A stretch of DNA of 64,000 nucleotides, taken from Tridacna crocea (lineage: Eukaryota > Mollusca > Bivalvia > Cardiida > Cardiidae). The stretch is taken from positions 47,966,992-48,030,991 of the forward strand of contig OX031065.1 in assembly GCA_943736015.1 (NCBI GenBank), given 5' to 3'. The position numbers and the translations under genes are program-made. Under the pieces are notes generated by a model. It was not told the DNA's origin and made no database searches. It was given only the letters and a program-made list of their open reading frames with translations. How positions within the stretch are numbered: position 1 is the stretch's first letter; every line of letters begins with the position of its first letter. Below are positions 33,175 through 62,820 of this stretch, in pieces.

Positions 33175-34955
33175 TTGTAATGATGGCCCTGTATCGCTCC
33201 ACTGGCTAGTAAGTCAAAACACTACAAGCCAAACATTACAATACTTGGCCAATTAGTTTTTAACTAGAAGGCATACAAAATTTTCTTCTATAAAATCCTA
33301 TGAGAAAATTATGAACCCAGGAAAATGCCTGTTTTGGCTACAATTAATTGAATCCTGGTTTAGGTCCACAAGATACAGCCCCATGCCAAATAAAACAGGT
33401 CTAGAATGTGTGTTTATAAACAAGAAGATTTTCAAAGTTTGCTCAATAAAAGATCATGTAAAACTTGAGACAGGTTAGCCCTAGGTCTTTTGGTTAGTCA
33501 CAAGAAAATTTATCAAGTTTTTAAGTATTAAAGCCCATGTGACCCCTGGAGTAGGGCCGAAAATGACCCACAAGGTTACAATTTGGGTCTTCTTGGTAGA
33601 GGCACACTAGATAAAGGTATAACATGCAAAATTTGGTAGCCCTAGGCTTTATGGCTACATACGAGTATATTTTCAAAGTTTCCCTACATAAGCCTAATGT
33701 AAAAATTGTGACCCCAGGGCGGGGACAAATTTTACCCCAGGGCTATAATTTGGACGTCCTTGGTAGACATCAACTAGATAAAGCTACAATATGCAAACTT
33801 TGGTAGCCCTAGGCCTTATGACTAGGTGCGAGAAGATTTTGAAAGTTTTCCCTACATAAGCCCATGTAAAACTTGTGACCCCCCCCGGGACAGGGACAAC
33901 TTTGACCCCGGGGCTATAATTTGGACACCCTTGGTAGGCAACCACTACATAAAGCCACATGCCAAATTTGGTAGCCCTAGGCCCGATAGTTACATAGAAG
34001 AGGAATTTTAAAGTTTACCCTATATAAGCCCATTTAAAACTTGTAACCCCAGGGGCAGGGTCAATTTTGACCCCAGGGCTATAATTTGCACACCCTTGGT
34101 AAAAGTCAACCAGAAAAAGCTACATGCTAAATTTGGTACCCATAGGCCTCATGGCTAGGTCGAAGAAGAATTTTATAGTTCTCCCCATATAAGCCCATGT
34201 AAAACTTGTGACCCCCCAGGGCCAGGCCAATTTTGACCCCAGGGCTATAAATTGAAGAAACTTGGTAGAGGTCCACTAGATAAAGCTACATGCCAAATTT
34301 GGTAGCCCTAGGCCTTACAGTTTCGGAAAAGAAGATGTTCAAAGATTTTCAAAATTTTTCAGTGTTGTTGCCATGGCAACCAGAGTTTTTGAAGGAATCA
34401 ATTTTTTTCAAGAAATTCTAAAGAGGACCATGGCAGGATTATTTCTGTAGAGGTCCACTAGATGGAGCAACATGCCATATTTGGTAGCCCTAGGTTCTAT
34501 TGCTAAGTAGATGAAGGATTTTAAAGTTCTCCCTATATAAGCCCATATAAAACTTGTGACTCCCCCGGGGCGGGGCCAATTTTGACCCCAGGGCTATAAT
34601 TTGAAGAAACTTGGTAGAGGTCCACTAGATAAAGCTACATGCCAAATTTGGTAGCCCTAGGCCTTACGGTTTCGGAAAAGAAGATGTTCAAAGATTTTCA
34701 AAATTTTTCAGTGTTGTTGCCATGGCAACCAGAGTTTTTGAAGGAATCAATTTTTTTCAAGAAATTCTAAAGAGGACCATGGCAGGATTATTTCTGTAAA
34801 GTTTCATCAAAATTTGATGGGTAGTTTCAGAAAAGAAGATGTTTGAAATAAACCTTAACGCACGCACGAACAGACGGATGCACGGACGAACAGACGTACG
34901 ACGGACGCTGGGCCATGACATAAGCCCGCTGGCCTACGGCCAGTGGAGCTAAAAA
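33175..34955 (-). mobile_element. Helentron-like non-autonomous element (family B2, CCACTGG ends)
   Basis: Minus orientation. The 5' end is at 34955: TTTTTAGCTCCACTGGCC, then a hairpin-rich stretch and TCCGTCGTACGTCTGTTCG-like repeats. The body is a degenerate array of about 165-180 bp units (33330-34800) with AAACTTGTGACCCC, GGGCTATAATTTG, CCACTAGATAAAGCTACATG and TTGGTAGCCCTAGGCC. Two long blocks (about 34255-34440 and 34600-34790) are nearly identical, indicating recent internal duplication. The 3' end (33175-33210) reads, in reverse, CCAGTGGAGCGATACAGGGC plus a damaged hairpin half. Confidence 0.65.
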
Positions 34956-34990
34956 CTAACAGGTTGTTATTCATAACGTACAGGGTGACG

Positions 34991-35351
34991 CATCCTCGGA
35001 TACCCCAGGGTCTCCCTATTTGCTACGCTACATCGACCCTGGGACAATTGACTAATAAAACTTTGAATCAGCCGCCGAAAATCGATTCTAAACGTCATAC
35101 CGTACAGTACACTCGCCCATCACAAAATGATGATAGAACCAATGAAAAGCCAGCATTCGGCCAGCGGTAAAGCGAGCCGCCGAAAATCGATATGAAACGT
35201 CATAGCGTACTGTACACTCGCCCATCACAAAATGATGATGGAACCAATGAAAAGCCAGCATTCGGCCAGCGGTAAAGCGAAGGAAATTCAACTAATTGTC
35301 CCAGGGGTCGATGTAGCGTAGCAAATAGGGAACCCGGGGTATCCGAGGATG
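34991..35351. mobile_element. MITE with 9-bp target duplication (Mutator-like by TSD length)
   Basis: AGGGTGACG flanks the element at 34982-34990 and 35352-35360. The terminal inverted repeats are about 58 bp, starting CATCCTCGGATACCCCAGGG. The interior is a 105-bp segment present twice in tandem (35071-35175 and 35176-35280; GCCGCCGAAAATCGAT start). Nine-base duplications suit Mutator-like elements; no transposase is present to confirm. Frames of 67-75 codons reflect the internal duplication. Confidence 0.75.
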
Positions 35352-35360
35352 AGGGTGACG

Positions 35361-35480
35361 CGGTTTTAAAGACTTTGCCGGGGTCAGTCGTAAGGTGTAG
35401 GTTTCGTAACCCCGGGTTCGGGCCTCATTGGATCCACTTTTTTTTTAACGGGAGTATCCTGGGGTGAGATACATTAGAGC
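35361..35480 (+). other. tRNA-like (SINE head) remnant
   Basis: GGGGTCAGTCGTAAGGTGTA followed by CCCCGGGTTCGGGCCTC resembles a degraded A box and a good B box, with a T-run soon after. Probably a SINE head into which the preceding MITE inserted. A cloverleaf could not be completed. Confidence 0.35.
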
Positions 35481-35681
35481 CCAAGCTTAGGAATTGTGAA
35501 ACCAAGGAAATACATGAAATGTGAGCTGTCGCCATGATATGACTTAAAATATGTTGAAATCGGCTTAAAATGCCTTTAAATCAATCAATGCAAAGAAGAT
35601 TCGCCCCTGCAACCACAACAATTGTGAGAATTCTCTCTCTCTGATCATTTAGCATTATATTTATAAACAGAGTATGAAACT

Positions 35682-35912
35682 TTAACCTGCTAGGTACCAC
35701 ACAAGCCCAAGCTTTAAGGATCCTGAAAGATAAAGCCTCTTGGAATATTGCAGGGTAAGAAGAAAATACTGGTTACTGGCATTTTCCCCTTTCCTTGCAA
35801 TGTTTTCAACTTTATCAAAGAGACTTTTTCATTTGAGCTCCATTAGATCTATCATCTGCATATACTTTTAGTTTGTTAGATTCTAAATTTTGTTAGTTTG
35901 GTAAATAATTAA
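35682..35912. mobile_element. Family A MITE, diverged, complete
   Basis: TTAACCTGCTAGGTACCACAC to GTTAGTTTGGTAAATAATTAA; 231 bp, the normal length. The palindrome is altered to GTAAGAAGAAAATACTGG with TTACTGGCATTTTCCCC opposite. The right part keeps ATCTGCATATACTTTTAGTT in family order. Confidence 0.65.
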
Positions 35913-35933
35913 AGAACAAAATATATCATATTT

Positions 35934-37915
35934 AGCTCACCTAAGCACGAAGTGCTAATGGTGAGCTTTTGTGATCGCCCAATGTCCGTCGTCCGTCGTC
36001 CGTCGTGCGTCGTCAGGACGTCCGTCTCGAGAGCGTCGTGCGTCGTCCATTGTCAACAATTTCTTTAAACATCTTCTCCTTCTGAACCAATCTTGATGAA
36101 ACTTGGCAGGGATGTTCCTTGGGTGAAGTTCTACCAAAGTTATTCAAGAGATTGAATTCTAGACATAATTCTGGTTGCCATGGCAACCAAAAGGAAAACA
36201 AAAAAAAAAAAAATAGCAAAATCTTTGAAAATCTTCTCCTCTGAAACTAGAAGGCGTAGAGCTTTGATATCTGGTATGTAGCATCTCCTAGTGGACCTCT
36301 ACCAAGATTGTTCATATGATGCCCCTGGGGTCAAAACTGGCCCCGCCCCGGGGGTCACAAATTTGAAACGGAGGAACGAAGAAGGAAAACTTTAAAATTC
36401 TTCTTCTCTGAAACTAGAAAGTGCAGAGCTTTGATATTTGGTATGTAGCGTCTCCTAGTGGACCTCTACTAAGATTGTTCATATGATGCTCCTGGGGTCA
36501 AAACTGGCCACACCCCGGGGGTCACAAGTTTGAAACTGAGGAACAAAGAAGGAAAACTTTAAAAATCTTCTGCTCTAAAACTAGAAGGTGCAGAGCTTAG
36601 ATATTTGGTATCCAGCACCTTCTTGTAAACCTCTGCTAAGAGTATTCATATGATGCCCCTGGGGTCAAAACTGGCCACGCCCCGGGGGTCAAAATTTTTT
36701 ATTATAGGAACAAAGAAGGAAAATTTCAAGATTCTTCTTCTCTGAAACTAGAAGGCGTACGCTTTGATATTTGGTAGGTAGCATCTCGTAGTAGACATCT
36801 ACCAAGATTGTTCATATGATGCTCTTGGGGTCAAAACTTGCCCCGCCCCGTGGGTCACAAGTTTGTATTATAGGAACAAAGAAGGAAAATTTAAAATTCT
36901 TCTTCTCTGAAACTAGAGGGTGCAGAGCTTTGATGTGTGGTAGGTAGTATCTCCTAGTGGACCTCTACCAAGATTGTTCATATGATGCTCCTGGGGTCAA
37001 AACTGGCCACGCCCCGGGGGTCACAATTTTGTATTATAGGAACAAAGAAGGAAAATTTCAATATTCTTCTTCTCTGAAACTAGAAGGCGTAGAGCTTTGA
37101 TATTTGGTATACATGTAGCATCTCCTAGTGGACCTCTACAAAGACTGTTCATATGATGCCCCTTGGGTCAAAACTGGCCACGCCCCGGGGGTCACAATTT
37201 TGAAACTTAGGAACAAAGAAGGAAAACTTTAAAATTCTTCTTCTCTGAAACTAGAGGGTGCAGAGCTTTGATATGTGGTAGATAGCATCTCCTAGTAGAC
37301 CTCTACCAAGATTGTTCATATGATGTCCTCGGGGTCAAAACTGGCCCCGCCCCGGGGGTCACAATTTTGAAACATAGAAATAAAGAAGAAAAAATGTAGA
37401 ATTCTTGTCTGAAACTAGGTGGTGCAGAGCTTTGATATTTGGTATGTAGCATCTCCTCGTAAACCTCTACCAAGATTGTTCATATGATGCCCATTGGGTC
37501 AAAACTGGTCCCAGAGGGCAGAAGTTTGAAACATAGGAACAAAAAAGGAAAACTTTAAATTTCTTATTCTCTGAAACTAGAAGGCGTAGAGCTTTGATAT
37601 TTGGTATGTAGCATCTCTTAGTGGAATTCTACAAAGTTTCTTCATACTATGCCCCTGGGGTCAAAACTTGCCCTGCCCCAGGGGTCACAAGTTCGAAACA
37701 TAGAAAGAAAGTAGGAAAACTTTAAAATTCTACTTCTCTGAAACTAGAAGGCGTAGAGCTTTGATATTTTGTAAGTAGCATCTCCTCGTGGACCTCAACC
37801 AAGTTTTTTCTTAGGATGCCCCTGGGGTCAAAACTGGCCCTGCCCAGGGGTCACAAGTTTAATTTACAGCTTGGTTCTCAGGTAAGCGATATAGGACCAT
37901 CATGGTCCTCTTGGT
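35934..37915 (+). mobile_element. Helentron-like non-autonomous element (family A2, CACCTG ends)
   Basis: 5' end AGCTCACCTAAGCACGAAGT with a hairpin AGCAC-GAA-GTGCT, then GTCCGTCGTCCGTCGTGCG repeats. The body is about ten units of about 167 bp from 36240 to 37870, each with CTGAAACTAGAAGGCGTAGA, AGCATCTCCTAGTGGACCTC, TTGTTCATATGATGCCCC and GGGGTCAAAACTGGCC. 3' end CAGGTAAGCGATATA, then hairpin AGGACC-ATCAT-GGTCCT and CTTGG. The usual hairpin in this family is GGGCC/GGCCC; here both arms carry a matching change. Non-coding. Confidence 0.7.
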
Positions 37916-37989
37916 TTTTTTTCCAGCTACCAGTTTCTATAAAATAACAGAAAGCCTATGATTTATTACAATTAATTGAATTATAATTG

Positions 37990-38420
37990 TAATTTGACTA
38001 GGGTTTGGATGTGATAGTGGTTAAAAGTACAATGAGTGTAGCCTACCCATACTGACCAACACAAGCACAACGTTATACGGTAGCTTTACTCAGTTGACCT
38101 TAATTTACCGTAGTTGTTCGACATTAGAGTGTAGTTTATGCGTATTTTAGCGTAGTGAATAATTTAATCGAAGTTAGACGTAGTAATATCATAGTTAGCC
38201 CCAGTCACTGCACGTAGTTGAATGTAGTTAACCGTACTTACACGTAGTTCGACGTACTCAGACTTTCTGTATGGCCAAGTTTGAACCTACTTTGAACGTA
38301 CTGCAACGTAGTTGACCGTATTAGCATAACGGCAGACTACATTTGAAATGAACTACGGACAACTACGTGCATTGACCGTAAATGTGACCATAGCTTAATG
38401 TAGTAGACGGTAACGCTTGT
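37990..38420. repeat. Motif-saturated repeat: CGTAGTTGACCGTA
   Basis: About twenty occurrences of CGTA(G/C)T, many within GTAGTTGACCGTA-like words on both strands, at irregular 15-30 bp spacing. No open frame or clear terminal repeats. It resembles the arms of the 1196-3710 element in style but not in sequence. Confidence 0.5.
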
Positions 38421-38534: not shown

Positions 38535-40289
38535 AGCTCACCTGAGCACAACGTGCTCAAGGGGAGCTTTTAGGATCACCCGGGTCCGTCGTCCGTCGTG
38601 CGTCGTCCGTCGTGCGTCGTCAACAATTCTTTAAACATCAACTCCTCCTAAATCGCTGGGTGGATTTGGACCAAACCTGGCAGGAATGTTCCTTGGGAGG
38701 TCCTCTTAAAAATTGTTCATAGAATTTGATTCCATCAAAAACTGTGGTTGCCATGGCAACCAAACGGAATTTTTTAGCAAATTCTTTAAAAATCTTCTCC
38801 TCTGAAACCGCTGGTCGGATTTTGAAATAATTTCACAGACATGTTCCTTGGGTGACCCTTTTCAAAAATTGTTCGTGAAATTTTCATCCGTCAAAAAATG
38901 TGGCTCTGGTGAATGGGGGCTACTTGCACTATACAGAAATAAAGGAATTCTTTAAAAATCTTCTCCTCTGAAACCGCTGGTCGGATTTTGAAATAATTTC
39001 ACAGATATGTTCCTTGGGTGACCCTTTTCAAAAAGTGTTCGTGAAATTTTGATCCGTCAAAAAATGTGGCTCTGGTGAATAGGGGCTACTTGCACTATAC
39101 AGAAATGAAGGAATTCTTAAAAATTCTTCTTCTCTGACACCTCTGGTCAGATTTTAAAATAATTTCACAGAGTTGCTCCTTGGGTGACCCTTTTCGAAAC
39201 ATGTTCGTGAAATTTTGATTGGTCAAGAAACATGGCTCTGGTGAATGGGGGCTTCTTGCACTATACAGAAATGAAGAAATTCTGGAAAATTCTTCTTCTC
39301 TGAAACAGCTGGTTAGATTTTGAAATAATTTCACAGAGTTGTTCCTTTGGTGACCCTTTTCAAAATTTGTTCGTGAAATTTTGATTGGTCAAGAAATATG
39401 GCTCTGGTGATTGGGGGCTACTTGCACTATACAGAAATGAAGAAATTCTTAAAAATTCTTCTTCTCTGAAACAGCTGGTTAGATTTTGAAATAATTTCAC
39501 AGATTTGTTCCTTGGGTGACCTTTTTCAAAAACTGTCCGCGAAATTTTGATTGGTCTAGAAACATGGCTCTGGTGAATGGGGGCTACTTGCACTATACAG
39601 AAATGAAGAAATTCTGGAAAATTCTTCTTCTCTGAAATGGCAGGACAGATTTTGAAATAATTTCACAGAGATGTTCCTTGGGTGGTCCTTTTCTAAGATT
39701 GTTCACGAAATTTTGATTGGCCAAGAAACATGGCTCTGGTGAATGGGGGCTACTTGCACTATATGGAAATGAAGAAATTCTTGAAAATTCTTCTTCTCTG
39801 AAACCCGTTGTCAAATTTTAAAATAATCTGACAGAGATGTTCCTTGGGTGACCCTTTTCAAAAGCTGTACATATAATTTTGATCTGTCAAGAAACATGGC
39901 TCTTGTGAATGGGGGCTACTTGCACTATACGGACATGATGAAATTGTTGAAAATTCTCTTTCTCTGAAACCCCTGGTCAGATTTTGAATTGTTCCTTGGG
40001 TGACCCTTTTCAAAACTTGTTCGTAAATTTTGATCCATCAAGAAACATGGCTCTTGTGGATGGGGGCTACTTGCTCTTATACAGAAATGAAGAATTCTTA
40101 AAAATTCTTCTTTTTGAAACTGATGGTCAGATTTCGAAATGACTTTTACAGGTGACCTTTTGAAAATTGCTTGGCAAATTATAAATTTGGTTCCAATGTT
40201 TCAATACCTCAAAAAAAAAAAAAAAAAAATAGACTATGGTCATCTCAAAAATTCAGGTGAGCGATCCAGGGCCATCTTGGCCCTCTTGT
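38535..40289 (+). mobile_element. Helentron-like element (family A2), inserted in a MITE
   Basis: 5' end AGCTCACCTGAGCACAACGT with hairpin GAGCAC-AAC-GTGCTC and TCCGTCGTGCGTCG repeats. The body holds about nine units of about 167 bp (38780-40110), with TTCTCTGAAACCGCTGGTC, GTTCCTTGGGTGACCCTTTT and CATGGCTCTGGTGAATGGGG. The unit length is near a multiple of three, so similar 73-79 codon minus-strand frames ending in ISV recur. 3' end CAGGTGAGCGATCCAGG, hairpin GGGCC-ATCTT-GGCCC, then TCTTGT. A T-rich junction on both sides suits Helentron insertion between T residues. Confidence 0.75.
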
Positions 40290-41073: not shown

Positions 41074-44000
41074 GTTTGTAGCACTTTTGTTTTCTTTTAA
41101 ATCCGTTAATCTCGTTATAGGCGACGTAATGTTGCGAACGATATGAAGTAAGATTATGTACGGTGAATCAAATGTACATGTATCTAGACTAGTTCAAGAC
41201 TTTAGACTGTCTTTGTATTGATGTGGTAAGAAAAGAACCCTCTAGAAAACATAGTCACGGTGATTTACTAATGAACAATTATTTGTTCCTGTCAATCACC
41301 ATCTTATCGCTCTTGTCAGCGGGACTTACATGGAAACGGACAGAGCAACCTGGCTTTTAGATTTCTTTGTCCCAAAAACATAGATCAATGCTATGTTCCC
41401 ACTCTCACGATTGCGCCACAATTGAAATCGTGGTCTTAATCGTGAGCAAGTCGTGATTATCCTATCAGGTCGTATCAGAACTTGATGTTAATCGTGGCAA
41501 TCGTGTTAATCGTATGATTTTTTTGGCTGTCAAAAGATTTTCTACGATCAACACAATTGATTTTCAATCGTGATCATCGCTTCTAATAGTATTGAATCGT
41601 AACAAAACTTAGCGGATCGCATCAAATCGTGCTTCTAAATCGTGTTGATCGGGAAAACCTTGGACAAGCTAAAGGCAAAGCTCTGGTTTGATTTGTTGGA
41701 TAATAGGATAGGATAAGTTCTCCTTTTTGATCCCCATACATCGAGGCAACAGACGTAAGAAATGCGGCACCCTTTGCCGCAGCAGAACACGGTGCCGTTT
41801 AAAACGAACATATTCCCTTCAACATTGAACATTCAGGTTCTACTCGTAGCAGCTCAAAACGTTTTAGAAATAAACTCAGAAGCCTTTCCGAAAGCCTGCA
41901 AGCCAGGTTGGTTGGGTCAAAAGGGCAGGTCAAAAAAAGAGAATTTCAGAGAACCGATTACCGCATTTTCACCCTCAGAAAATGAAACAAGATGGCCAAG
42001 ATGGCAACAAGAGGGCCCTGAATCGCTCACCTGAATTTTAGAGAGGACCATAACTCTTCTTTTTTTTCTTTAGGTATTGGAACTTTATAAACAAAATATA
42101 TATTTTGCCAAACGATTTTTTAAAAGTCACCAGAAAAGTCATTTCACCACCTGTCACCACCCCTACAATCATCACCACAGCAATGATTATGATGAATCAG
42201 AATTCTGCAACTAGATTTTAAGATAGATCAGCCATCGACAATTTCTTGAAGAAGAGCACATTCTCGCACATGCTCGATAGTGACTAAAATTGTAAGTGGA
42301 ACAAGAACCAACAATTATTGGCTCTTGTTTTTCGACGGATATAGTTTTTGAGAAGAATCACGCAAGGAACATTTCTGTGAAATTATTTCAAAATCTGACC
42401 AGCGGTTTTTGGGAAAAATAATTTTTAAGGATTTCTCCATGGCCATATAGTGCAAGTAGCCCCCATTCACCAGAGCCATGTTATTTGATGGTCATCGAAA
42501 GAACATTTCTATGAAATTATTTCAAAATCTGATCGGCGGTTTCAGAGAAGAAGAATTTTCAAGAATTTCTTAATAGCCGTATAGTGCAAGTAGCCCCCAC
42601 TCACCAGAGCCATGTTTCTTAACGGATCAAAAATTCCCCAAAAGTATTTGAAAAGCGTCATCAAAGGAACATCTCTGTGGAATTATTTCAAAATCTGACC
42701 AGCAATTTTAGAGGAGAAGATTTTTAAAGAACTTCTTTGAAAACTCCATTTGGGTGCCATGGCAACCAGAGTTCTTTTATGGAAGCAAATTCTGTGAACA
42801 ATTTTTAAAGAGTTCCATGGAACATTCCAGCCAAGTTTGGTAAAAATTTGCCCAAAGGTTTGAAAACAAGAATTTAATGTACATTTGAAATGAAAATGGG
42901 GTATTGTGTATCATTAAGTCAACTAAACAACATGTTTATCTATCATCACATCTTCGCGAGCCAAGGTTGCGATCACTACGTGGATCTTACCTCGGCTGAT
43001 TGAGCCCGATTTTGAGATTCCTGCGATGCACCCTCTATTGGATGCTTGTTATTAAACCCCCCACCCCCCCTTTACATCATATTTCTGAAAGCCAATGAAA
43101 TATCGTTTTACAAACCGCTTACGAATATAACTATTCAACATGACGCGATAAGCAGACATCCACGTGGGTTTCCATGTTTACCTCAATTCGAAAGGTCGCA
43201 ACCTTATTCTATTTTTATCAAAGATGAAATGCTACGAACGATTTCATTCGTTGCAGTTAGAGCTGACTGCATCAAATGAAAAAGCGTATCGGGGAAATGT
43301 AAAAATCAAGCTCGATCTGCAAATGGTAGAGTAGCGTAGTGAATCGTCAGCCTTGGCTTGCGAACATGTTATCATCAAGGGAACTTCAATCTATTTGTAT
43401 GATGTGTCGAGGAGGCTAGAAAACTAACCGAAATATTAGCTTCTTTCTTCTGTGAGCCATGGTCACACCCAGAACTGTCTGACTACCTCTCTCCTGACCC
43501 TTGCGGGCTATGCTAGTCTGGCAACTACTCGTCTTCTTCCTCCCTGGTGATATAATGTCTGTATACTGCAGATCCATATCACATTATCACTTTCCTAAAC
43601 AATTAGTATTCACAAAAACAAGAGGGCCATGATGGCCCTGTATCGCTCCACTGGCTTTTTAACCCTTTACCACACAAATTGAAGTGTTCATGACCATGAA
43701 AAAGAGTGCCTGCAAAAACAATGAACGCTGTCAGGCAGTACAAGCAGGTTAATTCATTAGCATGAAAGGTAAAATCCTTGGAAAAATAAGCTGAATGATA
43801 GAAACCTTACTCTGAATTTATTATTCACCTCATGTGAGCATAACTATTAGCATGAAAAAATGAATAACACTTGAAAACAGAATATTTTCTATCAAAAAAC
43901 TTAATGTCTAGCACCAATCATGTATCAATGCAGTTTGATAATCAAGGGAGGTAAATAGTACCAAACTTTATCTTTCATAAAAAGAGTTATTTCCCTTGAT

Positions 44001-53000: not shown

Positions 53001-56000
53001 TGTTGGAAGAAAGTTGCTTTAAAATATGTTGGGTGCAAATGTTACCTGCTCCACTTATAAAGTTTACGACGAGACTTCTGTGAGATTGTGGGCTTGAGGT
53101 GGAAGTAGACACAACAACTAAAGTTTGTTACACAGTCGTCTGCAATACAGTACAATAACAAAATAAAAAAGAAATAATGTCTACTTTGAAGACAAACTCG
53201 ACTACCTTGCACGTTACAAAGAGATTAGACTGATAAAAAGGATTTTAATTTCCAAAAAGGAACAAAAGGTATCACACCACTACATTAATTTAAAGAGCAC
53301 TCGTCTACAAATATATTAGCAAAGTATTATTACAAGAAGCGAAATGTCCAAAACTTCACTTAATTAATGAGTTCCAAAAATAACATAAATCTAAGGAACA
53401 TTCGTAAGTTTGTCATAGAAGCCTTTAAGAATAAACTCCAAAAATAACATAAATCTAAGGAACATTAATAAGTTTGTCATAGAAGCCTTTAAGAATAAAC
53501 TCAAATTTCTAGTAGAAAGTATTTAGTCTAAGGCCTGGCAAGCTGGATTCAATTTTTTTTCAATCCATCTGGTAGAAAAATTTCATTGGTACCAGGTGAT
53601 AGCACAGCTATATAGAAGTCAAATTAGGGTGGATGCCAGAAACAAAAGTGGTGCAGATTTTTTTCAGACGCCATTTTGTTACCCCACCCACTGAAAATGC
53701 ATTGAATTGAGCTTATGTGTATAAACAACAAAATTTCAATAATTTCAGGACTATATTGATTGCAAATAGGTCTAATTGATAGTTAAGCACATAAGCAATG
53801 GTAAAATTCAGTTACAGGAGAAGATAAAATACATTGGGTGTCCTGGTGTTACCCCACCCGCCAAATTTGCATACATTTTTTGAAAATCATGAGCAACTTG
53901 ATATCATTTAAGACTTTTGTGTTTCACCTTCTTGTGAAAGGGTTTGATGAGAACTAAATGCTTAATGTTGTACTAAATTGCTGCATTGTATATTTGTTAC
54001 GGTCTTGCTTAGCTTTTACCCCACCCACTAATGTATATTCACGGCCATCTACGGGCTATTATATAATTATGGCAGATTTCAGGAGACACGATTTTTGAAA
54101 ATTAAGTTGGATTTTTTTGTTTGATAAGGTTCCTTATATCCACATTGGATTATTGTCTACTGTGATGCAGTGCTAGTTATTACACATCAACATGTCCTTC
54201 ATGTAACAAAATTGTAAAGTAAAAGAAATTCCATTCTAATTTAGAAAAATAAATATTTCCTGGTTCAGATTATAATATTTCACTTCGAATCATCTGTATA
54301 ACACATATTTGTTTTATATTAATTGAGTATTTTGGAACAAAATTTTGGCACATTATATGTCAGAAAAGATCAGTGTTTTGCAACTATTTTAATTTCTTGA
54401 AAAAGTTATATAGATCTAGTAAATAATTCCTAGCTGTTTGTACTTAAAATGTTAAAACTGTTAACTATATTCATGCTATATGCATTAAAAATATCATTGT
54501 TATGTAGGAAATAAATCTGTTACATCATGACATTTCAACAAGAGGGACATTGGCCCTGGATTGCTCACCTGAGACTATAGCTTAATTCCCTCATGTTTAT
54601 GCGATGAACTTTAAACTAACCTGTGACCCCAGGGGCAGGGCCAGTTCTGACCCCAATGGCATAATATGAACAAACTTCGGAGAGGTCCACTAGGAATTGC
54701 TACATGCCAAATATCAAAGCTCTATGCCTTCTAGGTTTAGAGAAGAAGAATTTTATAATTTTCTGTTTTTGTTCCTATGTTTGAACTTGTGACCTCCAGG
54801 GCAGGGCCAGTTTTGACCCCAGGGGCATCATATGAACAAACTTGGTAGAGGTCTACTAGAAGATGCTACATACCAAATATCAAAGCTCTACGCTCTCAAG
54901 TTTCAGAGAAGAAATTATTTTCAAGTTTTCCTTCTTTGTTCCTGTGTTCGAACTTATGACCCCCGAGGCAGGGCCACTTTTGAACCCAAGGGCATCGTAT
55001 GAACGAACTTGGTAGAGGTCCACTAGGAGATGTTACATTCCAAATACCAAAGCTCTATGCCTTTTACTTTGTGAGAAGAAGAATATTGAAGTTTTCATTC
55101 TTTGTTCCTGTTTGAGCTTGTGACCCCCGGGGTGGGGCCAGTTTTGACCTTAGTCGCATTATTTTAACAAACTTGGAAGAGGTCCACTAGGAGATGGCCA
55201 CATGCCAAATATCAAAGCTCTATGCCTTCTACTTTCAGAGAAGAAGATTTTCACGGATTTTGTTTTTTTTTTTCCTTTTTGCGGCCATGGCACCAGAATT
55301 GGGTGGAATTCTATTCTTTGAACAAATTTGGTAGAGCTTCACTCAAGGAACATCCCTGCCAAGTTTCATCAAGATTTGCCCAGTGATTTAGGAGAAGGTG
55401 TTTAAAGAAATTATTAACGGATGACAGATGCTGGACGCCGGACATAGGACAATCACAATAGCTCACCTTTAGCACATTGTGCTAAGATGAGCTAAAAAAA
55501 AAAAAAAAAAAAGAAACCCAGAAAAACACCCACATCCACATCCACATCCACACCCACACACACATATACACATACACACACACAACGCAGTTGTACTGTC
55601 AATGCAGCAAACAAAGAAACTGATGAATGGTCACTCGTGCGTCACAATTATGCTGAATGAACAGCGCATTTGTTAATTTTAAGTCAGCAAGAGGATTTTA
55701 GCTCCACTGGTGGAAGGCCAGCGGGCTTATTTCATGGCCCGCTGTCCGTCGTGTGTCTGTCCGTATGTGCATTAACTTATATTTCAAACATCTTCTCTGA
55801 CACTACCCATCCAAACTTGATGAAACTTCACAGAAATGATCCTGCCATGGCTTTCTTCAGAATTTCTTGAATGAATCTGATTCCTTCAAAAACTCTGTTT
55901 GCCATGGCAACAAAACTGAAAAATGTTGAAATCTTTGAAAATAAAATCTTCTTATCTGAAAGCATAAGGCCTAGGGCTACCAAACTTGGCATGCAGCTTT

Positions 56001-59000
56001 ATGTTGTGAACCTCTACCAAGTTCCTTCAAATAATAGCCCTGGAGTCGAAATTGGCCCCGCCCCGAGGGTCACATGTTTTATACGGGATTATATAGGGAA
56101 AATTTTAAAATCCTTCCTTAGGGCCTTGGGCTACCAAATTTGGCATGTATCTTTATCAACTGGGCGTCTACCAAAAGTGTCCAACTTATAGTCCTGGGGT
56201 CAAATTTGGCCCGGCCTCAGGGTCACAAGTTTTACATAGGCTTATATTGGGAAAGCCTTTAAAAATCTACCAGTACATAGCAGTAAGGCCTATGACTACC
56301 AAATTTTGGATGTAGCTTTATCTAGTGGGCCTCTACCAGAAGGGCTCAAATTATAGCCTTGGAGTGAAGTTTGTTCCCACACCAGGGGTCACAAGTTTTA
56401 CCTTGGCTTTTGTGTTGAAAATTTTATAAATGATCTTTTTACTAACCATAATAAAGCCTAGGGCTACCAAATTTAGCCCTGTTTCATGGATTTCATGCTA
56501 TACATGGCCTTTTTTCTTTTAGGAAACTTTGAAAATCTTCTTGTTTATAACACAACATTCTAGACCTGTATTATTTGGTACGGGGGTTTATCTTGTGGAC
56601 CTCCACCAGGATTCAAGTAATTATAGCTTTGCGGTCAATAATGGCTTTGCCCAGGGGTCAAGGGGTCATAAATTTCTCGTAGGACTTTAGAGAAAAAAAA
56701 TTGTATGTCTTCAAGTTTAGAAACAATTGCCCAGAGTAGTAATATTTGGCTTGTAGTGTTTTCATGTATTAGCCAGTGGCACGATACAGGGCCGTCATGG
56801 CCCTCTTGTGTTAAGTTATATCCCATATTGCATTAGTGAACTAGAGAAACAGATGAATGAAAAAAGAAATAGGACCCTTTTTTGACCTCGGCCTTAGCCT
56901 ATTGTATGTATTCAAGTTTGAAACCATTTGGCCGGAGTTGTAATGTTTGGCTTGTAGTGTTTTCACTTGTTACCCAGTGGAGCGATACAGGGCCATCATC
57001 TCTTTTTTCTAGTCATATCCCCTATTGCAACTGTGAAATAGATTAACAGAGTAGGAGAGTAAGAATAACAAAGGAAATAAAGCATCTTAAGAAATGAAAA
57101 TAGCCAAATCTTAGTGTTGGCATACTTATGGTTACAGTTGTGAATATACATGTATAATGAAATAACGAAATCAAAGGGTAGTGTGCAACAACAAATTCTA
57201 CTGTTGCACTCATAAATAGATCATTTTTGAGGTGCTAAATGCTAAAACTCCATAACTGTTCTTAATTCTGGTCCTCTATGTCTGTCCTAGTAGCTCTAGC
57301 CAAAACTGTGAAAAAATATAGCAAGAAATATTAACACATTCAATGTGAAGACTGAAAATCAGCGATTGTTTTCAATTCATTCTGCAAGGAACATTTATTA
57401 GGTTTTTTACGGTATGTGAAATTTGTCAGACTTGATTTAATATAAGTCTTACATACATGTAAATGTGGATTTTTATGAGCATCTTAAATTCAAAAGATTT
57501 GTCAAAAAGATTGCATTATTTCATTGGTTTTTTTTTCATCATTGTGAACTTAGGAAAAGTTTACTTTTTGTTATAGGCAAATTTGGGGTAGGCGCGTTTA
57601 TTAGCATATAAAAAAAATCTGCACCACTTTCAGATCTGGCATCCATGCTTAAAGTGACTCTAATAGGCTATCCTAACTCACTGTACCATTTGAATTTTTC
57701 TACCAGATGGATTGAAAAAAAAATTAAAAATAGGGCCCTTTTTTGATCTGGGCCTTAGCCTAATTATATTTTGGGTTCACCCTCCAAATATATACACAGA
57801 TAAATAAACACTTTACTGGAAAGCATAGGTAAAATTGTTTTCGTCTTGAAAAATGAACAGGTAGAATGCTGTGACAATGAGTGAAGAAATGTCTGTAGAA
57901 ATTGCCTTTCATTGTAACATCGCTCTACTCTTTTTCTTATAGCTAAACCAATTAACATTCGGTCAAATGATGTTTTATCTTTTAATAATCACAAACCATC
58001 TGCTCTACTCACCTTATTTCAACTACTAACACTGTAGTTACAAATACATGTTTCTGAGAACTTGACGATGAAGATCTGTAAAGGCCAAGTCTTGATTAAA
58101 GATTTATTTATCTATCGCTCATAATCTATATAATGGCTCCCAAATACAGTAATTAACCGTTGTATGTATTTATCTCTTTATATGCTGACAAATATTGCCA
58201 TAAACGGTGGGCGCTGTTGTCTCTTACTGTCTGACAAATTTTATGTGCCTTACTTTTTGACAAAGGAACCAATATTGCAGTAAATCATTGTGTGCATATT
58301 CTTTGACAGCCTAACAAATATTGCAGTAAGCCATTTTGTTTTGTAACTCACTGTCTTTTACTTGAAATAAACCATCGCGTGCAATTACCAGTATCTGCTT
58401 CACTGGCAGATGTCTAATAAATGCTATAAACCTTGGTGTGTTGTTGTTTCTGATTCTACTTTGCATTAAATCACTATGTACTCTTCATAATATCTGTGAT
58501 TTCATTTTTTTTTCCTCTACAATGTGTGGATTTTTGTTCCAATTCATTGTAAGTTACCCTGGGACAGAGGTTAAGATCAAAGCATGTATTTGAATCATAC
58601 AAATGACATATCCCGTTTTCTTTCGATATGATTCCTGTAGTCAACGCATAATGGCACTCCATGGATTATTTCAGTATTGGTAAGCCAGTTAAGAGATAGT
58701 TGCAAATCACGGTTTAAATAATGCAGTGTTAGTCTGTCAAGAGAAAATAGCACACCACGTGTTATTGATATATAAGTCAGCAAGTCCGTAGACATTTCAC
58801 AGTTCAACACGGCATGTACATTTTATCTACTACCCATGCAGTGTAATGGGGTAACACGATCCTGTACTCAGAATGACATTCATTAAACCATGTGAATGAA
58901 TTTAAATTCTTTAAAAAGTTGTTAACTGTAAACAGGACATGCTTGGGAAAAATGATAGAGTATAAAACATCCAGAGAATAATATTAGGACTGAGACATGG

Positions 59001-62000
59001 TTGACTTTGAATATAGCGATTTAATAGAAATTATTCCAAAGTTCCTACTATTATATTTCGAAACAATTACTTTAAGGTATACTAACACATACCAAATCCT
59101 TTGTCGAAACCAGCTTCGGATAGGAACCATTTATGATGGCGGAAAAGAAGTGTGCATTGATGAGCCTGTTGCACCGAAAAAACCTTGTTTAGTTTATTCC
59201 TACGGGTAAGCCACTTTACTATTTCTTTTAATATTTGGCATTTCATCTCAAGTAAGATCAAATAAAACCGAGTACATGAAGCTAAATCTGGTTTATCTGA
59301 AATGAAAACCGCCGATTGCAGAGCAAGTGCAATTGTTAGATACGTTTCCTTATATGTTAGTTTGCTGAGTACAGACACAAATCTGTGCACAACTTCTATT
59401 ATTATAAAGTCTAATGGTTTTAGGTCTTTACATTTTATCAGATGTAAACACAATTGAGGAATAAGAATTTCGCATATAGACATGAAATCTGATAGGAATT
59501 GGACATCTTCAGTCATGGAGAAAGAAAGGCCTGAAATCACCATTGTCAGAGCAGGTTTTATGTACAGAGTTCGTTAAATGTACTGAAACTGCAGATCTAC
59601 CATCTGACTGCACGTACGCAATCTATTCTTGTTCTATCTCCTGCTTTTGCCATATATGGTCATTTATGTCAGTGTCATTTCTTCTTTCCTAGGTCGAAAA
59701 ACAAATTTGATTTTGAATCGGACATCATTAGATGGTTTGGTTGCGAAGTTCATACATTTGACCCAAGGTAAATATCTTGATAACTGGTGCTTTCCAGATT
59801 TATCCTACCGCCGGAACTGATTTTTATTATTTCGACTTAAAGACAGATTTCGCTAGGTTTGTGCACAAAGATTTGAGAAGAGATTTGGAAATAGAGGAGT
59901 GAACCCACGGACAAAAAGTTAAAGAGTGTGAAACGATATCAAAATGGTCGTAAAGAAGTTAATTTTGGTCTGAACGCTTGGGCAATATATAGTCACACAT
60001 ATATCGTCACAAATGATAAGATATGGTGGATAAACGTACATGTGCAATATCTATAAAAAAAGAACGAAGAAGTATATATTTATACTTGGATAAATGTTTC
60101 TAAATTATGATATACATGTTTGTAAAAACCTTCAAAGGGGAGCCTAAAATCGGATCTTAGTTGTGAAACTTTTGAAAAAGATATCATAACGCCTGTCTAT
60201 GATGACATGTCAAACAACATACATACAACATGTACATGTAACAAACATTTTTCTTTTAGTATGAATCACATACCGAATGAACAGGTGAAAAACCCTCGTG
60301 GATGTAAGTTTCATCGAACAGGCTTATCCGACAAGACCACAGTCACAAAGAAAGGCTGGCAGCTTCAAACTCTAGGAAAGACAGTGAAAGACTTAAACCA
60401 CGAAAATGTTCGTAGACGAAACTGAATACTAAGTGTGTGTGTGAGAGAGCCATCACGTGTGAAAATAGGGGCTAAATGTAACAGCAAAAAATATCGACAC
60501 AGGTCAGATTGCGCAGTCCGCACACGATGACCTTGGTCGTAACTAAGTTAATGGACAATTTTCTTCGTGTCAAAGGATCAAAGATTATTACGTTTCCCAA
60601 GATAATACACAAAATGGCTGCCAAACACGATAAATTTTGTTGTTTGTTTTGTCTTCATATTAACATGTAATTAAAGACTTCTAAATGCGCGGACTGATTT
60701 GTTAAACCGACGAAAGAAAACGTCAGTACAGCGCTATAGCTTTTTTTTCTCGGAAAATTTACCATAGACCTGAGACGGTGCGGCGCACATTAATCCTAAA
60801 AATCATAAAAAAAAAGCTAACCGAAACGGGTCATTATTGATAACCACATTGTATTCTTTAAGATAAGATAAGATCATCGATGCTTTTTACCTAAAGCTTT
60901 TCGAATCACTTAGGCAGTGCTGCCATTTCATTGTCATTGATCTGCGATATGCAACGTCATTTGCAAATGAAGCTAAAAAATGGTGCAACCGAAAAGTTAA
61001 TCAAACAGTCAATGATCTGAAGTCTACTTGCTTTTAAGCTCACCTGAGCACAATGTGCTCAAGGGGAGCTTTTAGGATCATCCACTGTCCGTCGTCCGTC
61101 GTGCGTCGTCAACAATTCTTTAAACATCAACTTCTCCTAAACCGCAAGGCCAATTTGGACCAAACTTGGCTAGAATGTTCCTTGGGAGGTCCTCTTTAAA
61201 AATGTTCACAAAATTTGATTCCGTCAAAAACTCTGGTTGCCATGGCAACGAAATGGATTTTTTTAGGAAATTCTCTAAAAATTGTCTTCTCTGAAACCGC
61301 TGGTCAGATTTTAAAATAATTTCTCAGAGATGTTCTTTGGTTAACCCTTTTATGTTCGCGAAATTTTGATCCGTCAAGAAACATGGCTCTGGTGAATGGG
61401 GGCTACTTGCACTATATGGAAATGAAGAAATTCTTAAAAATTCTTCTCCTCTGAAACCGCTTATCACATTTCGAAATCATTTTACAGAGATATTCCTTGG
61501 TTGACCCTTTTCAAAATTTGTTCATGCAATTTCGATTAAAGAAACATGGCTCTGGTGAATGGGGGCTACTTGTACTATAAGGAAATGAAGAAATTCTTAA
61601 AAATTCTTCTTCTCTGGAACGGCTGGTCAGATTTCGAAATCATTTCATAGAGATGTTTCTTGGCTGACCCTTTTCAGAAGTTTTTCCTGAAATTTTGATT
61701 CGTCAAAAAACATGGCTCTGGTGAATGGGGGCTACTTGCACTGTTGAAATGAAGAAATTCTTAAAAGTTATTTTTCTCTCGAACGGCTGGTCAGATTTTG
61801 AAATAATTCCACAGAGATATTCCTTGGGTGACCCTTTTTAACAAATTGTTCATGAAATTTTGATTCGTCAAGAAACATGGCTCTGGTGAATGGGGGTTAC
61901 TTGCACTATATGGAAATGAAGAAATTCTTGAAAATACTTCTTCTCTGAAACGGCTGGTCAGTTTTGAAAATAATTCCACAGAAATGTTCCTTGAATGACC

Positions 62001-62820
62001 CTTTTCAAAATTGTTCACGAAATTTTGATTCATCAAGAAGCATGGCCCTGGTGAATGGGGGCTACTTGCACTGTACTGAAATTAAGAAACTCCTAAAAAT
62101 TCTTCTTTGCTGAAACTGCTGGTCAGATTTTGAAAGGACTTCTACCGATGTCCTTTTGAAATTTTGAAAATTGCTTGGCAAAAGAAGGATTTTGTTTCCA
62201 GTGTTTCAATACCTTAAAAAATGGCTATGGTCCTCTCAAAAATTCAGGTGAGCGATCCAGGGCCATCTTGGCCCTCTTGTTTACTTTCGCCGTCTCGGTA
62301 TATAATCATTGTACTGATTAAAGGACCGTTTTTCATGCTTTTATACGTTGCTTGAAGGAATCAAAATATATTCAAACTTCGAGATTCAACTGCAAAGGGA
62401 TCTTCACTGACTAATAATGTTTTAAGCATTCCGACATATTATAAGTGATACATGTATATTGTTTTTACCACAAAGAATCGAATATGCATTCATCATTTTT
62501 TTTTTGGCTTCTTTCAGAGAACCATAGATATTGTCAAAATGGACATAGAGGGATCAGAATGGCGGTCAATCAGTCAAATGATAGAAAGTGGTGATATCAA
62601 CCGAATCAAGCAACTTCAACTGGAGTTACATTTTCCACGCAAAGGAAAGAACTTTACAACCCATTTGGGTGTATTAAAGAAACTCTATGATTCTGGCTTC
62701 AGAGTGTTTAACCGAGAAAGTAACGTATTTTGTCCGAGTTGTAATGTGTTTAACGAGGAACTTGGGTACCAGATTTCGTACTTTGTCGAGATGTGCTATA
62801 TTAACTCGAATCTTCTTTAA
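40977..62820 (+). CDS. METTL24-like: METTL24-like methyltransferase, complete six-exon gene
   Basis: Coding exons are 40977-41073, 48582-48714, 59077-59205, 59693-59767, 60260-60407 and 62518-62820, joined by GT-AG introns in consistent phase to give 294 residues. Residues 8-28 form a hydrophobic signal anchor (LLILAIIIVATVLTFG) after a short basic N-terminus, so a type II Golgi/secretory membrane protein is expected. The C-terminal part matches the Methyltransf_21/FkbM-type fold of METTL24-like proteins: IYDGGKEVC (95-103), CLVYSYG (114-120, likely SAM-binding loop), FGCEVHTFDPS (135-145), GLSDKTT (166-172) and KMDIEGSEW (201-209). Length is a little short of human METTL24 (about 366 residues, from memory) but the domain is whole. 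SAM-dependent methylation is inferred from the family; the substrate is unknown. Orthology to METTL24 itself is less sure, since related genes are numerous in molluscs. Introns 1, 2 and 5 carry repeats. Confidence 0.88.
41385..41660. repeat. Motif-saturated repeat rich in AATCGTG, copy 1 (intron 1)
   Basis: Many words such as AATCGTG, CGTGATTA and CGATCA on both strands at 12-25 bp spacing. The left edge ATGTTCCCACTCTCACGATT partly mirrors the reverse complement of 45955-45975 (AGGTTCACACTGCCGCGAC). This and 45270-45975 may be the two ends of one element split by later insertions. Confidence 0.45.
42007..42865 (-). mobile_element. Helentron-like family A2, 5'-truncated copy (intron 1)
   Basis: Reverse orientation. 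42007-42035 is the 3' end (reverse: TTCAGGTGAGCGATTCAGGG, then CCCTCTTGT), with the hairpin loop deleted. Four array units follow (CAAAATCTGACCAGCGGTTT, AGTGCAAGTAGCCCCCATTC). The 5' hairpin terminus is missing. Confidence 0.6.
42956..43363. mobile_element. Small TIR element candidate (intron 1)
   Basis: The left end TCGCGAGCCAAGGTTGCGAT and the reverse complement of the right end TTCGCAAGCCAAGGCTGACG match over about 30 bp with a few differences. About 408 bp, no transposase. Flanks share ACATGTT..ATCATCA-like sequence, but no clean duplication. Confidence 0.45.
43618..45250 (-). mobile_element. Helentron-like element (family B2), intron 1
   Basis: The 3' end at low coordinate reads in reverse CCAGTGGAGCGATACAGGGC, hairpin GGGCCATCATGGCCC, TCTTGT. 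The 5' end at 45250 reads in reverse TTTTTAGCTCCACTGGCC and contains CCGTCCGTCCGTCCGTCC. The array of about seven units (44040-45100) shares CATGTAAAACTTGTGACCCC and TTGGTAGCCCTAGGCC with 33175-34955. A stretch at 43659-44000 starting TTTTTAACCCTTTACCACAC is unlike the array and may be a nested insertion. Confidence 0.7.
45270..45600. repeat. Motif-saturated repeat rich in AATCGTA/CGATCC (intron 1)
   Basis: Similar to 41385-41660 in word composition (TATCGGATCGG, AATGGATCGTATACG). It continues after the SINE as 45878-45975 (GCGAATCGTGGCGCTCGTAA). It is probably the right part of the same element. Confidence 0.4.
45621..45877 (-). mobile_element. tRNA-derived SINE with 12-bp target duplication (intron 1)
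   Basis: GTATCATCTCGT at 45621-45632 and 45866-45877 bounds the element. On the minus strand the head reads CCTGTGTGGCTCAGTGGTAA, an excellent A box, and CCCAGGTTCGAGCCTC, an excellent B box. The 3' part has GGCGTAAAACACCATTC and a CAAA-repeat tail. The tail-proximal region is related to the SINE at 19160-19460. Confidence 0.8.
45878..46700. other. Intron 1 sequence with one tRNA-like remnant
   Basis: 45878-45975 belongs to the AATCGTG-rich repeat. At about 46494-46560 GGGTAGCGAAGTGGCTGGAT and TCGTAGGTCCGAATTCCAC resemble A and B boxes of a degraded tRNA-derived sequence. The acceptor stem does not pair well. Nothing else is identified. Confidence 0.4.
46701..46902. mobile_element. Family A MITE, CCCAAAC subtype, with shortened palindrome
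   Basis: TTAACCCTTTCCCAAATAATC to TTGTCGTTTGGGAAAAGGTTAA; 202 bp. GAGAAAAGGAGAAAATGCTG is present but most of its complement is deleted after CCAGCTACC. The right half keeps GTCGTCTGCAAATGCTTTC. Confidence 0.75.
46899..47110. mobile_element. Family A MITE, old copy sharing a TTAA with its neighbour
   Basis: It begins at the previous element's right TTAA and has AAAACATTTGCAAATGACGA and TATTTTCTCCTTTTCTCGTAA. The right terminus is lost. Confidence 0.45.
47155..47345. mobile_element. Family A MITE, old copy
   Basis: TCTTACCAAACAAACAAATTG, GGACTGGTCGACAATGAAAG and CATTTTCCCCTTTTCCCATT follow the family order. The left half of the palindrome is deleted. It ends near CTTGGGACTTATTGGTA. Confidence 0.5.
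47605..48531 (-). mobile_element. Fossil Ty3/Gypsy gag fragment, intron 1
   Basis: Minus-strand translation gives a capsid-like segment (PKLSLFYGEDNKGEV, ILRRSV-type helix region, FYSCQQLPLDTKV) typical of Gypsy gag in invertebrates. Downstream, near 47700-47650, is a degraded zinc-knuckle region. The piece is broken in several places and has no LTR. Its 5' edge lies only 50 bp before exon 2 of the host gene. It is antisense to the gene and may or may not come from the same insertion as the pol fossil at 50050-52560. Confidence 0.7.
48582..48714 (+). CDS. METTL24-like: METTL24-like exon 2: lumenal stem region
   Basis: 133 bp preceded by a strong pyrimidine tract (TTCTTCTCTTCTTCTTTCAG) and followed by GTAAGT. 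It encodes residues 33-77, including LRIPQYYEKDVVGKETLLL and an amphipathic LDKINALNISAVLALIH. NIS is a possible N-glycosylation site. It lies between retroelement fossils 50 bp upstream and about 1.3 kb downstream. Confidence 0.8.
48715..49506. other. Intron 2 start; MITE fragment at 48896-48955
   Basis: AAAATTTAGACCGGTCAAAT and TTGAAAGCATTTGCAGACGA at 48896-48940 are a half family A MITE. A 64-codon minus-strand frame at 48984-49178 has no recognised domain. Otherwise unassigned. Confidence 0.45.
49507..49870 (+). mobile_element. LINE ORF2 C-terminal fragment (intron 2)
   Basis: The plus-strand frame encodes NKRTDLSHLRFSLHKLLIEI, then GRQ...RRQRICCI. In the next frame it continues EDEYHRVLVCPVVYTDIR. 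This order (basic helix with HKL.IE.GR, then C-x-C...EDE-H...CP-Y) is the C-terminal Cys/His region after the RT of several invertebrate non-LTR retrotransposons. A one-base frameshift separates the two halves, and no RT core lies upstream, as expected for a 5'-truncated copy. The clade cannot be assigned. Confidence 0.65.
50050..52560 (-). mobile_element. Fossil Ty3/Gypsy pol: RT, RNase H and integrase (intron 2)
   Basis: Minus-strand translation shows an RT region with the catalytic-type YLDDVNIFS near 51950, then HVDKVNGIKTDPAKTKKV near 51800-51740 at the RT/RNase H junction. An integrase C-terminal part with HSPYELIFGRYTKLPID lies near 50145-50095. The domain order is normal for Gypsy pol. 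It is heavily broken (many interruptions), so it is old. LTRs and gag are not contiguous. It is antisense to the host gene. Confidence 0.75.
52561..53372. other. Intron 2, no recognised feature
   Basis: The first 300 bp may still be retroelement-derived. No clear domain beyond it. Confidence 0.35.
53373..53501. repeat. Two-copy tandem repeat, about 64 bp unit
   Basis: CCAAAAATAACATAAATCTA begins each copy and CTTTAAGAATAAACT ends it, with only a few differences between copies. Confidence 0.75.
54539..55493 (-). mobile_element. Helentron-like family A2, reverse orientation
   Basis: The 3' end at 54539 reads in reverse CAGGTGAGCAATCCAGGGCC, a hairpin with a damaged arm, then CTCTTGT. The 5' end at 55493 reads in reverse AGCTCATCTTAGCACAATGT, with hairpin TTAGCAC-AAT-GTGCTAA in place of the usual GAGCAC/GTGCTC. 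There are four array units with GACCCCAGGGGCATCATATG-like text shared with 35934-37915. Confidence 0.7.
55495..55590. repeat. Poly-A and (CACATC)n/(CA)n simple repeat
   Basis: An A-run at 55494-55512, then CACATCCACATCCACATCC and CACACACA-type repeats to about 55586. Confidence 0.85.
55696..56812 (+). mobile_element. Helentron-like family B2, plus orientation
   Basis: 5' TTTTAGCTCCACTGGTGGAA, hairpin-rich start and GTCCGTCGTGTGTCTGTCCG. Five to six array units with AGGGCTACCAAATTTGGCAT. 3' end GCCAGTGGCACGATACAGGG, hairpin GGGCCGTCATGGCCC, then TCTTGTG. It lies inside the 53525-57765 element. Confidence 0.7.
56700..57060. repeat. Segmental direct duplication including an element end
   Basis: 56700-56860 and 56905-57060 match, covering the last part of the family B2 element, its 3' end and the flank beyond (ATATCCCATATTGCA / ATATCCCCTATTGCA). 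Duplication of flank plus element end points to local tandem duplication after insertion. Confidence 0.55.
57766..58137. other. Intron 2, no recognised feature
   Basis: No domain or element structure. Confidence 0.4.
58138..58480. repeat. Degenerate minisatellite, about 60-70 bp unit
   Basis: Words such as CTGACAAATATTGC, GCAGTAAATCATTGTGTGC and TGTCTCTTACTGTCTGACAA recur five or six times with strong divergence. Confidence 0.5.
58481..59076. other. Intron 2 end, no recognised feature
   Basis: Includes the branch-point/acceptor region for exon 3. The frame at 58997 that reads into exon 3 is treated as intronic because of phase. Confidence 0.4.
59077..59205 (+). CDS. METTL24-like: METTL24-like exon 3: start of methyltransferase domain
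   Basis: The acceptor TACTTTAAG gives the one base needed to complete Gln77, and GGGTAAGC supplies the donor. It encodes YTNTYQILCRNQLRIG, then IYDGGKEVCIDEP and KKPCLVYSYG. The open frame extends upstream to 58997, but only this acceptor keeps phase with exon 2. Confidence 0.85.
59206..59692 (+). other. METTL24-like: Intron 3 of the METTL24-like gene
   Basis: 487 bp, GTAAGC...TTTCCTAG. A 153-codon minus-strand frame (59082-59543) spans most of it and the antisense of exon 3. It has no known domain and is not called as a gene. Confidence 0.7.
59693..59767 (+). CDS. METTL24-like: METTL24-like exon 4
   Basis: 75 bp between TTTCCTAG and GTAAAT. It encodes SKNKFDFESDIIRWFGCEVH then TFDP, the segment that in this family holds the acidic residue expected to contact SAM. 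Phase 2 on both sides. Confidence 0.88.
59768..60259 (+). other. METTL24-like: Intron 4 of the METTL24-like gene
   Basis: 492 bp, GTAAAT...TTCTTTTAG. No repeat recognised. Confidence 0.7.
60260..60407 (+). CDS. METTL24-like: METTL24-like exon 5
   Basis: The acceptor TTCTTTTAG is clear. It encodes MNHIPNEQV, GCKFHRTGLSDKT and KKGWQLQTLGKTVKDLNHEN. The only phase-compatible donor is AAT|GTTCGT, which is weak; the alternative GTAGAC four bases on breaks the frame with exon 6. Confidence 0.82.
60408..61036 (+). other. METTL24-like: Intron 5, repeat-free first part
   Basis: About 630 bp with no recognised element before the family A2 insertion. Confidence 0.5.
61037..62280 (+). mobile_element. 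Helentron-like family A2, intact ends (intron 5)
   Basis: 5' AGCTCACCTGAGCACAATGT with hairpin GAGCAC-AAT-GTGCTC and GTCCGTCGTCCGTCGTGCG. The body is six units of about 165 bp (61260-62150) like those of 38535-40289. 3' CAGGTGAGCGATCCAGGGCC, hairpin GGGCC-ATCTT-GGCCC, then TCTTGT. It lies in the same orientation as the gene, 238 bp upstream of the last exon. Confidence 0.8.
62518..62820 (+). CDS. METTL24-like: METTL24-like terminal exon
   Basis: It starts after GGCTTCTTTCAG and encodes RTIDIVKMDIEGSEWRSIS, then LQLELHFPRKGKNF and a cysteine pair (FCPSC) near the end, finishing ...CYINSNLL. The stop TAA (62818-62820) forms the last three bases of the TTAA left terminus of a MITE. Confidence 0.9.
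   Translation, partial: RTIDIVKMDIEGSEWRSISQMIESGDINRIKQLQLELHFPRKGKNFTTHLGVLKKLYDSGFRVFNRESNVFCPSCNVFNEELGYQISYFVEMCYINSNLL

Follow-up and report, generated by a model that had tools for sequence, protein, structure and literature searches.

The 64,000-nucleotide stretch of Tridacna crocea DNA analysed here (contig OX031065.1; hereafter the window) carries several families of elements with asymmetric ends, and it raises the question of whether each 5' end keeps to its own 3' end and which machinery moves the pairs. A preliminary description had recognised four Helentron-like families (A to D), and had proposed that their end pairing is under selection and that one machinery mobilises them all. 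When the window was re-mapped with a mismatch-tolerant scan, nine complete elements were recovered, four of family A, three of B and one each of C and D (Table 1). The class of the 5' end agreed with that of the 3' end in 7/7 A and B elements, as had been claimed; C and D are single copies in the window, and for these two a match consists only in complementarity between the 5' and 3' ends (7/8 in family D, judged by eye). Allowing at most one mismatch, GCTCACCTGAG gave nine matches in the window against 0.44 expected and GCTCCACTGG seven against 1.41, a few of these motif matches (e.g. 43829 and 58397) not being element ends in the re-mapping. The scan found no 5' end nearby for the A fragment. 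Among the A copies the hairpin is GGGCCATCTTGGCCC in two, GGACCATCATGGTCC in one and GGGCCAATGTCCC in one. The exact hairpin GGGCCATCATGGCCC, which had been described as shared by A and B, is confined within the window to a single B copy (43624-43638), the hairpins of the B copies at 33180 and 56772 being broken and changed respectively; genome-wide the sharing is real, as this hairpin is common to a large A subfamily (1474 copies) and to B (1629 copies).

Table 1. Elements with recognised ends in the window.
Feature	Coordinates	Strand	Ends and core
Family C element	4206-5672	+	5' hairpin ATCCCCCGCC..GGCGGCGGGGGAT; GTCC-type microsatellite; 157/160-bp tandem core; 3' subTIR GGCGGGGGATA; weak hairpin; CTTG
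Family D element	22663-23982	+	Ends ATGCCCAC../GGGGGCAT; tandem core ~158 bp; CTTG end
B element	33180-34950	-	3' hairpin broken after GGGCCATCAT; B5 0 mismatches; B3 0 mismatches up to CATCAT
A element	35934-37913	+	ATA spacer; GGACCATCATGGTCC hairpin; tandem core ~167 bp
A2 element	38535-40288	+	5' arm AACGTGCTCAAGGGGAGCT; CCA spacer; GGGCCATCTTGGCCC hairpin; 166-bp core
A element fragment	42008-42737	-	3' end (42033-42008); hairpin lost; partial tandem core
B element	43619-45247	-	GGGCCATCATGGCCC hairpin intact
A element	54539-55493	-	5' CTTAG variant; 3' hairpin GGGCCAATGTCCC
B element	55700-56808	+	Followed by a second, damaged B 3' end at 56973-57009
A2 element	61037-62279	+	Subclass as in 38535-40288

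Also in the window are a 78/303-bp tandem array (29836-30812), at which the end scan recognised no Helentron ends, and a near-perfect palindrome (32973-33039) with 33-nt arms that are 91% complementary. The palindrome is part of a repeat that recurs in the window (e.g. 7035-7274 and 20012-20237) and at many other loci.

We consider it very probable that these elements are HINEs, short, non-coding and non-autonomous Helentrons with cognate Helentrons, and that every end class represents a separate lineage derived from a source of its own. The plan runs from a T-rich target through a 5' subTIR, which forms the first arm of a 5' hairpin, and a short GTCC-like microsatellite into a satellite-like core, and from there to a 3' subTIR that complements the 5' subTIR, then to a hairpin, which is weak in C and D, and a terminal CTTG. 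Judging from the family to which such elements belong, the cognate Rep would recognise the subTIR pair together with the hairpins, nick at the T-rich left boundary and after CTTG, and have the strand moved by rolling-circle replication, with mobilisation in trans. What is directly observed of this scheme is the anatomy, the matched ends, the TT and T flanks and the end-sharing loci with RepHel genes. TT preceded 40 of 42 5' ends (background 0.12), and T followed 17 of 18 3' ends, sampled hits chosen to end in T having been excluded; as read from these flank counts, insertion is within TT. None of 200 shuffles folded as well as the 5' hairpin of A, nor as that of C. Neither the 5' hairpin of B (12/200 shuffles as good) nor that of D (39/200) was exceptional. 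A 7-bp stem is predicted for the 3' hairpins of A and B, with shuffles folding as well in 12/200 cases for A2, 21/200 for B and 2/200 for that of locus L052, and the 3' hairpins of C and D were no better than shuffles as single-stranded DNA (110/200 and 55/200 respectively). Fold-back MITEs, or another cut-and-paste class, might be suspected from the inverted repeats and from the strong 5' hairpin of A and C; this is very improbable, as the 3' inverted repeat is internal, the elements are flanked by TT and T, and A2 ends occur on a RepHel-endonuclease element (see below).

Exact patterns were searched across the genome (1.05 Gb, 31 contigs), with reversed patterns as the control, and each control returned 0 matches. 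The 5' ends numbered 7460 for A and 1224 for B. Among 3' ends there were 1629 of B, 619 of family C and three kinds of A: 1474 with a four-base spacer (TTCA), 3965 with a three-base spacer (CCA) and a CATCTT loop, and 46 with a three-base spacer and a CATCAT loop. The hairpin followed by TCTTGT occurred 4948 times. Pairing was examined on contig C1 by joining coordinates of 5' ends to any listed same-strand 3' end no more than 4 kb away, the 3' lists reaching 27.0 Mb for CATCTT and 58.6 Mb for TTCA and one of the 46 three-base-spacer CATCAT places being included. For A, 100 5' ends (up to 12.33 Mb) were joined and 48 had a listed 3' end. With rare arms merged (CATGGAG with TGGTG; CAAGGAG and CAAGGCG with AGGGG), 26/26 AGGGG-arm ends were linked to the CATCTT subclass and 21/21 TGGTG-arm ends to the TTCA subclass; one end of another arm type was linked to TTCA at 3979 bp. 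For B, five of ten 5' ends were linked up to 12.33 Mb, 13 of 27 up to 27.0 Mb and 38 of the 70 places up to C1:59.2 Mb (out of 100 listed for B5), and all 38 links were to B 3' ends. The 5' ends that had no exact 3' match (52/100 in A, 32/70 in B) are uninformative on pairing. A strand-flipped control of the join gave 1/110 links.

A second sample consisted of 40 of the first 43 listed hairpins (three were skipped), picked regardless of the repeat beside them. Within-class pairing was seen in 28 of the 40 (17 A with A, 11 B with B). One was A with B, nine of known class had no 5' end within 3.5 kb, and two, L009 and L028, had 3' repeats that are unclassifiable and were excluded from the A/B table, L028 likewise having no 5' end within that distance. 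The A-with-B case resolves, in that the B 5' end pairs with a separate B 3' end, which lies 2148 bp upstream of the one sampled. Mixing of A2 5' ends with B2 3' ends was absent among the linked copies compared. Fisher tests on the pairing assume independent copies, which these copies are not.

Common descent alone, each family having spread as a unit from one source, could produce such an association, and we put the chances of this explanation at about even. Subfamily labels that are not part of the inverted repeat, namely the second arm at the 5' end, the spacer at the 3' end and the hairpin loop, are equally linked, at 26/26 and 21/21, and the copies are not independent events, both as common descent would have it. 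Against it, the 3' subTIR is conserved above its neighbours in A (0.915 versus 0.737 in the 80 bp upstream; 21 copies; 0/72 windows as high) and in B (0.947 versus 0.593 upstream; 17 copies; 0/71 windows as high), an excess that is unclear in the A-TTCA subfamily alone (18 copies; 7/72 windows as high). Complementarity is also kept in families A, B and C, whose letters are unrelated. Locus L022 shares a change at three sites, 5' arm 1 (TTTAGCAC), 5' arm 2 (GTGCTAAA) and the 3' repeat (CTAAGG), with one 5'/3' mismatch remaining; yet the window copy 55493-54539 has the 5' variant alone, its 3' CTCAGG being unchanged. The data are therefore consistent with selection on end pairing, but as common descent explains the association without selection, that part of the preliminary description is unproven.

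The source of A2 is most likely a full Helentron, encoding RepHel and endonuclease, which has A2 ends on both sides and a tandem core related to that of A2. A search of the genome with the PF14214 profile gave 32 matches from 42 candidates, all of which were scored, and the match at C1:69635045 sits in an open frame of 2575 aa, whose continuity over 3.4 kb rests on the open-frame length from that search. The C-terminal 1207 aa of the frame matched PIF1 (7.3e-23) and Exo_endo_phos (7.3e-5; 23.1 bits, under the Pfam cut-off of 24.5). Downstream of the frame lies an A2-type 3' end (L049:5653-5687) whose loop is CATCTT and in which the GAT that follows the repeat carries one change; over 74 bp this region matches the end of window element 38535-40288 at 93% identity. 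Upstream is an A2 5' end at L057:1817, identical over 34 bases to that of the window, followed by GTCC repeats and a 166-bp array that continues into L050, where it is ~83% identical to the window array; L050 contained no A2-type 3' end between array and frame. From L057:1817 to the 3' terminus the element measures 14.7 kb. A second A-type 5' end in the same orientation occurs at L057:2756, where the first tandem array ends, so the left boundary of this Helentron is one of the two. As judged from its sequence, a candidate Rep/PIF1-type helicase/endonuclease partner with both A2 ends exists, at one complete locus. The preliminary description had classed these elements as Helentron-type and proposed a search for a RepHel gene flanked by the same ends; for A2 this locus bears it out, down to the A2-like tandem core.

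The A2 link rests on this one complete locus, as the closest relatives among those with downstream DNA examined, at C11:13.54 Mb (94%) and C7:28.85 Mb (92%), showed no A2 end downstream in L054 and L065. These two downstream stretches are mutually similar to the end of the DNA examined, and the elements may end beyond it. In the sampled non-autonomous copies, tblastn at E 1e-3 detected no helicase-endonuclease remnants; the search covered 41 sequences, the window and 40 loci, and was repeated with a positive control.

Next to the 3' ends of the GGACC-hairpin A subfamily and of family C are other proteins, related to the A2 protein but diverged from it. A 298-aa stretch at the end of the C1 frame served as query in a protein search, in which 132 of 444 candidates were scored; it gave at least 131 matches, and among loci other than the A2 Helentron 3' ends were found at L052, L060, L063, L064 and L069. 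An A-type 3' repeat with a GGACC-type hairpin is present at C10:26.0 Mb (67% identity to the A2 protein; 2534-aa frame), C9:7.9 Mb (64%), C1:73.6 Mb (48%; 2599-aa frame) and C7:40.3 Mb (40.28; 42%). The C9 and C7 genes are both interrupted by stops, and none of the PF14214 matches lies near either locus. Window element 35934-37913 has the same hairpin type as these four loci, and its last 55 bp are 91% identical to the 3' end of the C10 Helentron, for which no 5' end was found in 5 kb. The locus at C15:29.8 Mb (47% to the A2 protein) ends in the family C repeat and hairpin, its 3' end matching window positions 5503-5678 over 176 bp at 94.9% identity; it is interrupted, with a 343-aa frame at the endonuclease and a Rep match 8.6 kb upstream that contains a stop. 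Judged from coordinates only, the interrupted locus at C2:11.34 Mb (51%) likewise has a C 3' end on its strand, 6.4 kb downstream. The proteins at C1:73.6 Mb and C15 are about equally distant from the A2 protein, yet the ends beside them differ.

No partner for B was found downstream of the Rep/endonuclease matches L051, L053-L056, L059, L061, L062, L065 and L066, stretches that gave only five-difference chance matches to this hairpin type, and none for D among the RepHel/endonuclease loci examined. One could still suppose that all end classes are mobilised by a single RepHel, as the preliminary description proposed, and that this RepHel reads only the 3' hairpin and CTTG terminus which the classes have in common, with a neutral subTIR. 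The identity of hairpin GGGCCATCATGGCCC between the large A subfamily and B would fit, as would the failure to find a RepHel with B ends among the loci examined. The GGACC-type end, moreover, is found with proteins whose identity to the A2 protein is 48 to 67% (42% in an interrupted one), so that one end type can accompany diverged proteins. We nevertheless regard a single RepHel as unlikely, as the A2 and C 3' ends stand beside proteins only 47% identical (298 aa) and their hairpins are unrelated; the notion of four families served by one machinery is not supported.

Several other observations were made around these genes. At L058:3908 a degenerate B-like 5' end, which may be a fragment or chimera, lies 0.7 kb upstream of the open frame of a Helentron with an A-type 3' end. 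A different type of RepHel is found at L056 (C16) and at Rep places on C17, C2 and C13, with open frames of 1976 aa (two) and 1896 aa (two); L056 has PIF1, with neither an endonuclease match nor any of the ends described here. Short endonuclease remnants, covering approximately residues 198-297 of the 298-aa query and mostly 35-46% identical, occur at more than 20 places; a GGGCCAATGG-like hairpin accompanies the A-type 3' repeat in which two of the remnant loci, L067 and L068, end. OB-fold exons, suspected by eye in L053 and L055, received no Pfam support in L055.

The tandem cores, ~157-167 bp between element ends in the window, show a pattern of relatedness of their own. The two CCA-type A elements have cores with 84% mutual identity, which share only a 37-bp motif with the core of the GGACC-type A element. 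The latter core aligns with the B cores in the same orientation, at 66-71% identity over 318 to 1052 bases. Among 28 sampled elements with both ends, all 11 B elements had cores like those of B in the window; of the 17 A elements, one had a core like that of the GGACC-type A element and 16 matched none of the nine window cores. By this comparison A ends go with several cores and B ends with one kind. It is conceivable that the subTIR pair acts as a specificity tag which co-diversifies with RepHel, 5' arm 1, 5' arm 2 and the 3' subTIR being read by the cognate Rep and replaced as a unit and the 3' hairpin, and sometimes the core, being shared across tags. The relatedness of GGACC-type A and B cores under different subTIRs, and the hairpin common to an A subfamily and B, fit such a tag; we hold the idea to be doubtful, the more so since the B-type cores in 11/11 sampled B elements argue against free movement of cores.

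The reading as HINEs with cognate Helentrons places these families among systems already described. Among bivalves, the CvA, CvE and CvG elements are 'pearl' elements. In the available text they have conserved ends around a satellite-like core, a likeness drawn from description only (PMC11136912). FoHeli of Fusarium oxysporum resembles the present elements in its asymmetric terminal inverted repeats, a 5' hairpin with a GAA loop and subgroup-specific letters matched at both ends; it differs in that the text available credits it with no endonuclease and no satellite core (PMC5148889). For the Helentron/HINE elements of Metaseiulus and DINE-1 of Drosophila, the accessible portion of the account gives subTIRs that define families and a last 60 bp that defines subfamilies, palindromic subTIRs, a 3' palindrome and TT insertion, with HINEs considered deletion derivatives of Helentrons (PMC4067079); the hosts are different, and here the A2 Helentron itself has a tandem core. 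Cg_HINE of the Pacific oyster, likened by its description (PMC7492417), has an 11-12 bp 5' subTIR with a complementary IR beside it, a GTCC/GTCY microsatellite, satellite-like central repeats, a 3' subTIR and a palindrome, and its subTIR, IR and stem changes are element-specific. The pattern in T. crocea is therefore real and of a known kind, family-specific paired subTIRs being already published. A literature search at the level of titles and abstract starts found no autonomous mollusc Helentron with a satellite core. As far as their available text goes, the oyster papers related Cg_HINE to no autonomous Helentron, leaving the link from satellite HINE to autonomous element unresolved (PMC7492417), or detected no autonomous element (PMC7992393), whereas in the single assembly examined here a full Helentron can be seen to combine HINE ends with a related satellite-like array. 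Whether a Rep recognises its cognate pair of ends can thereby be put to a direct test, and the locus suggests that coding elements can carry a tandem array along with them.
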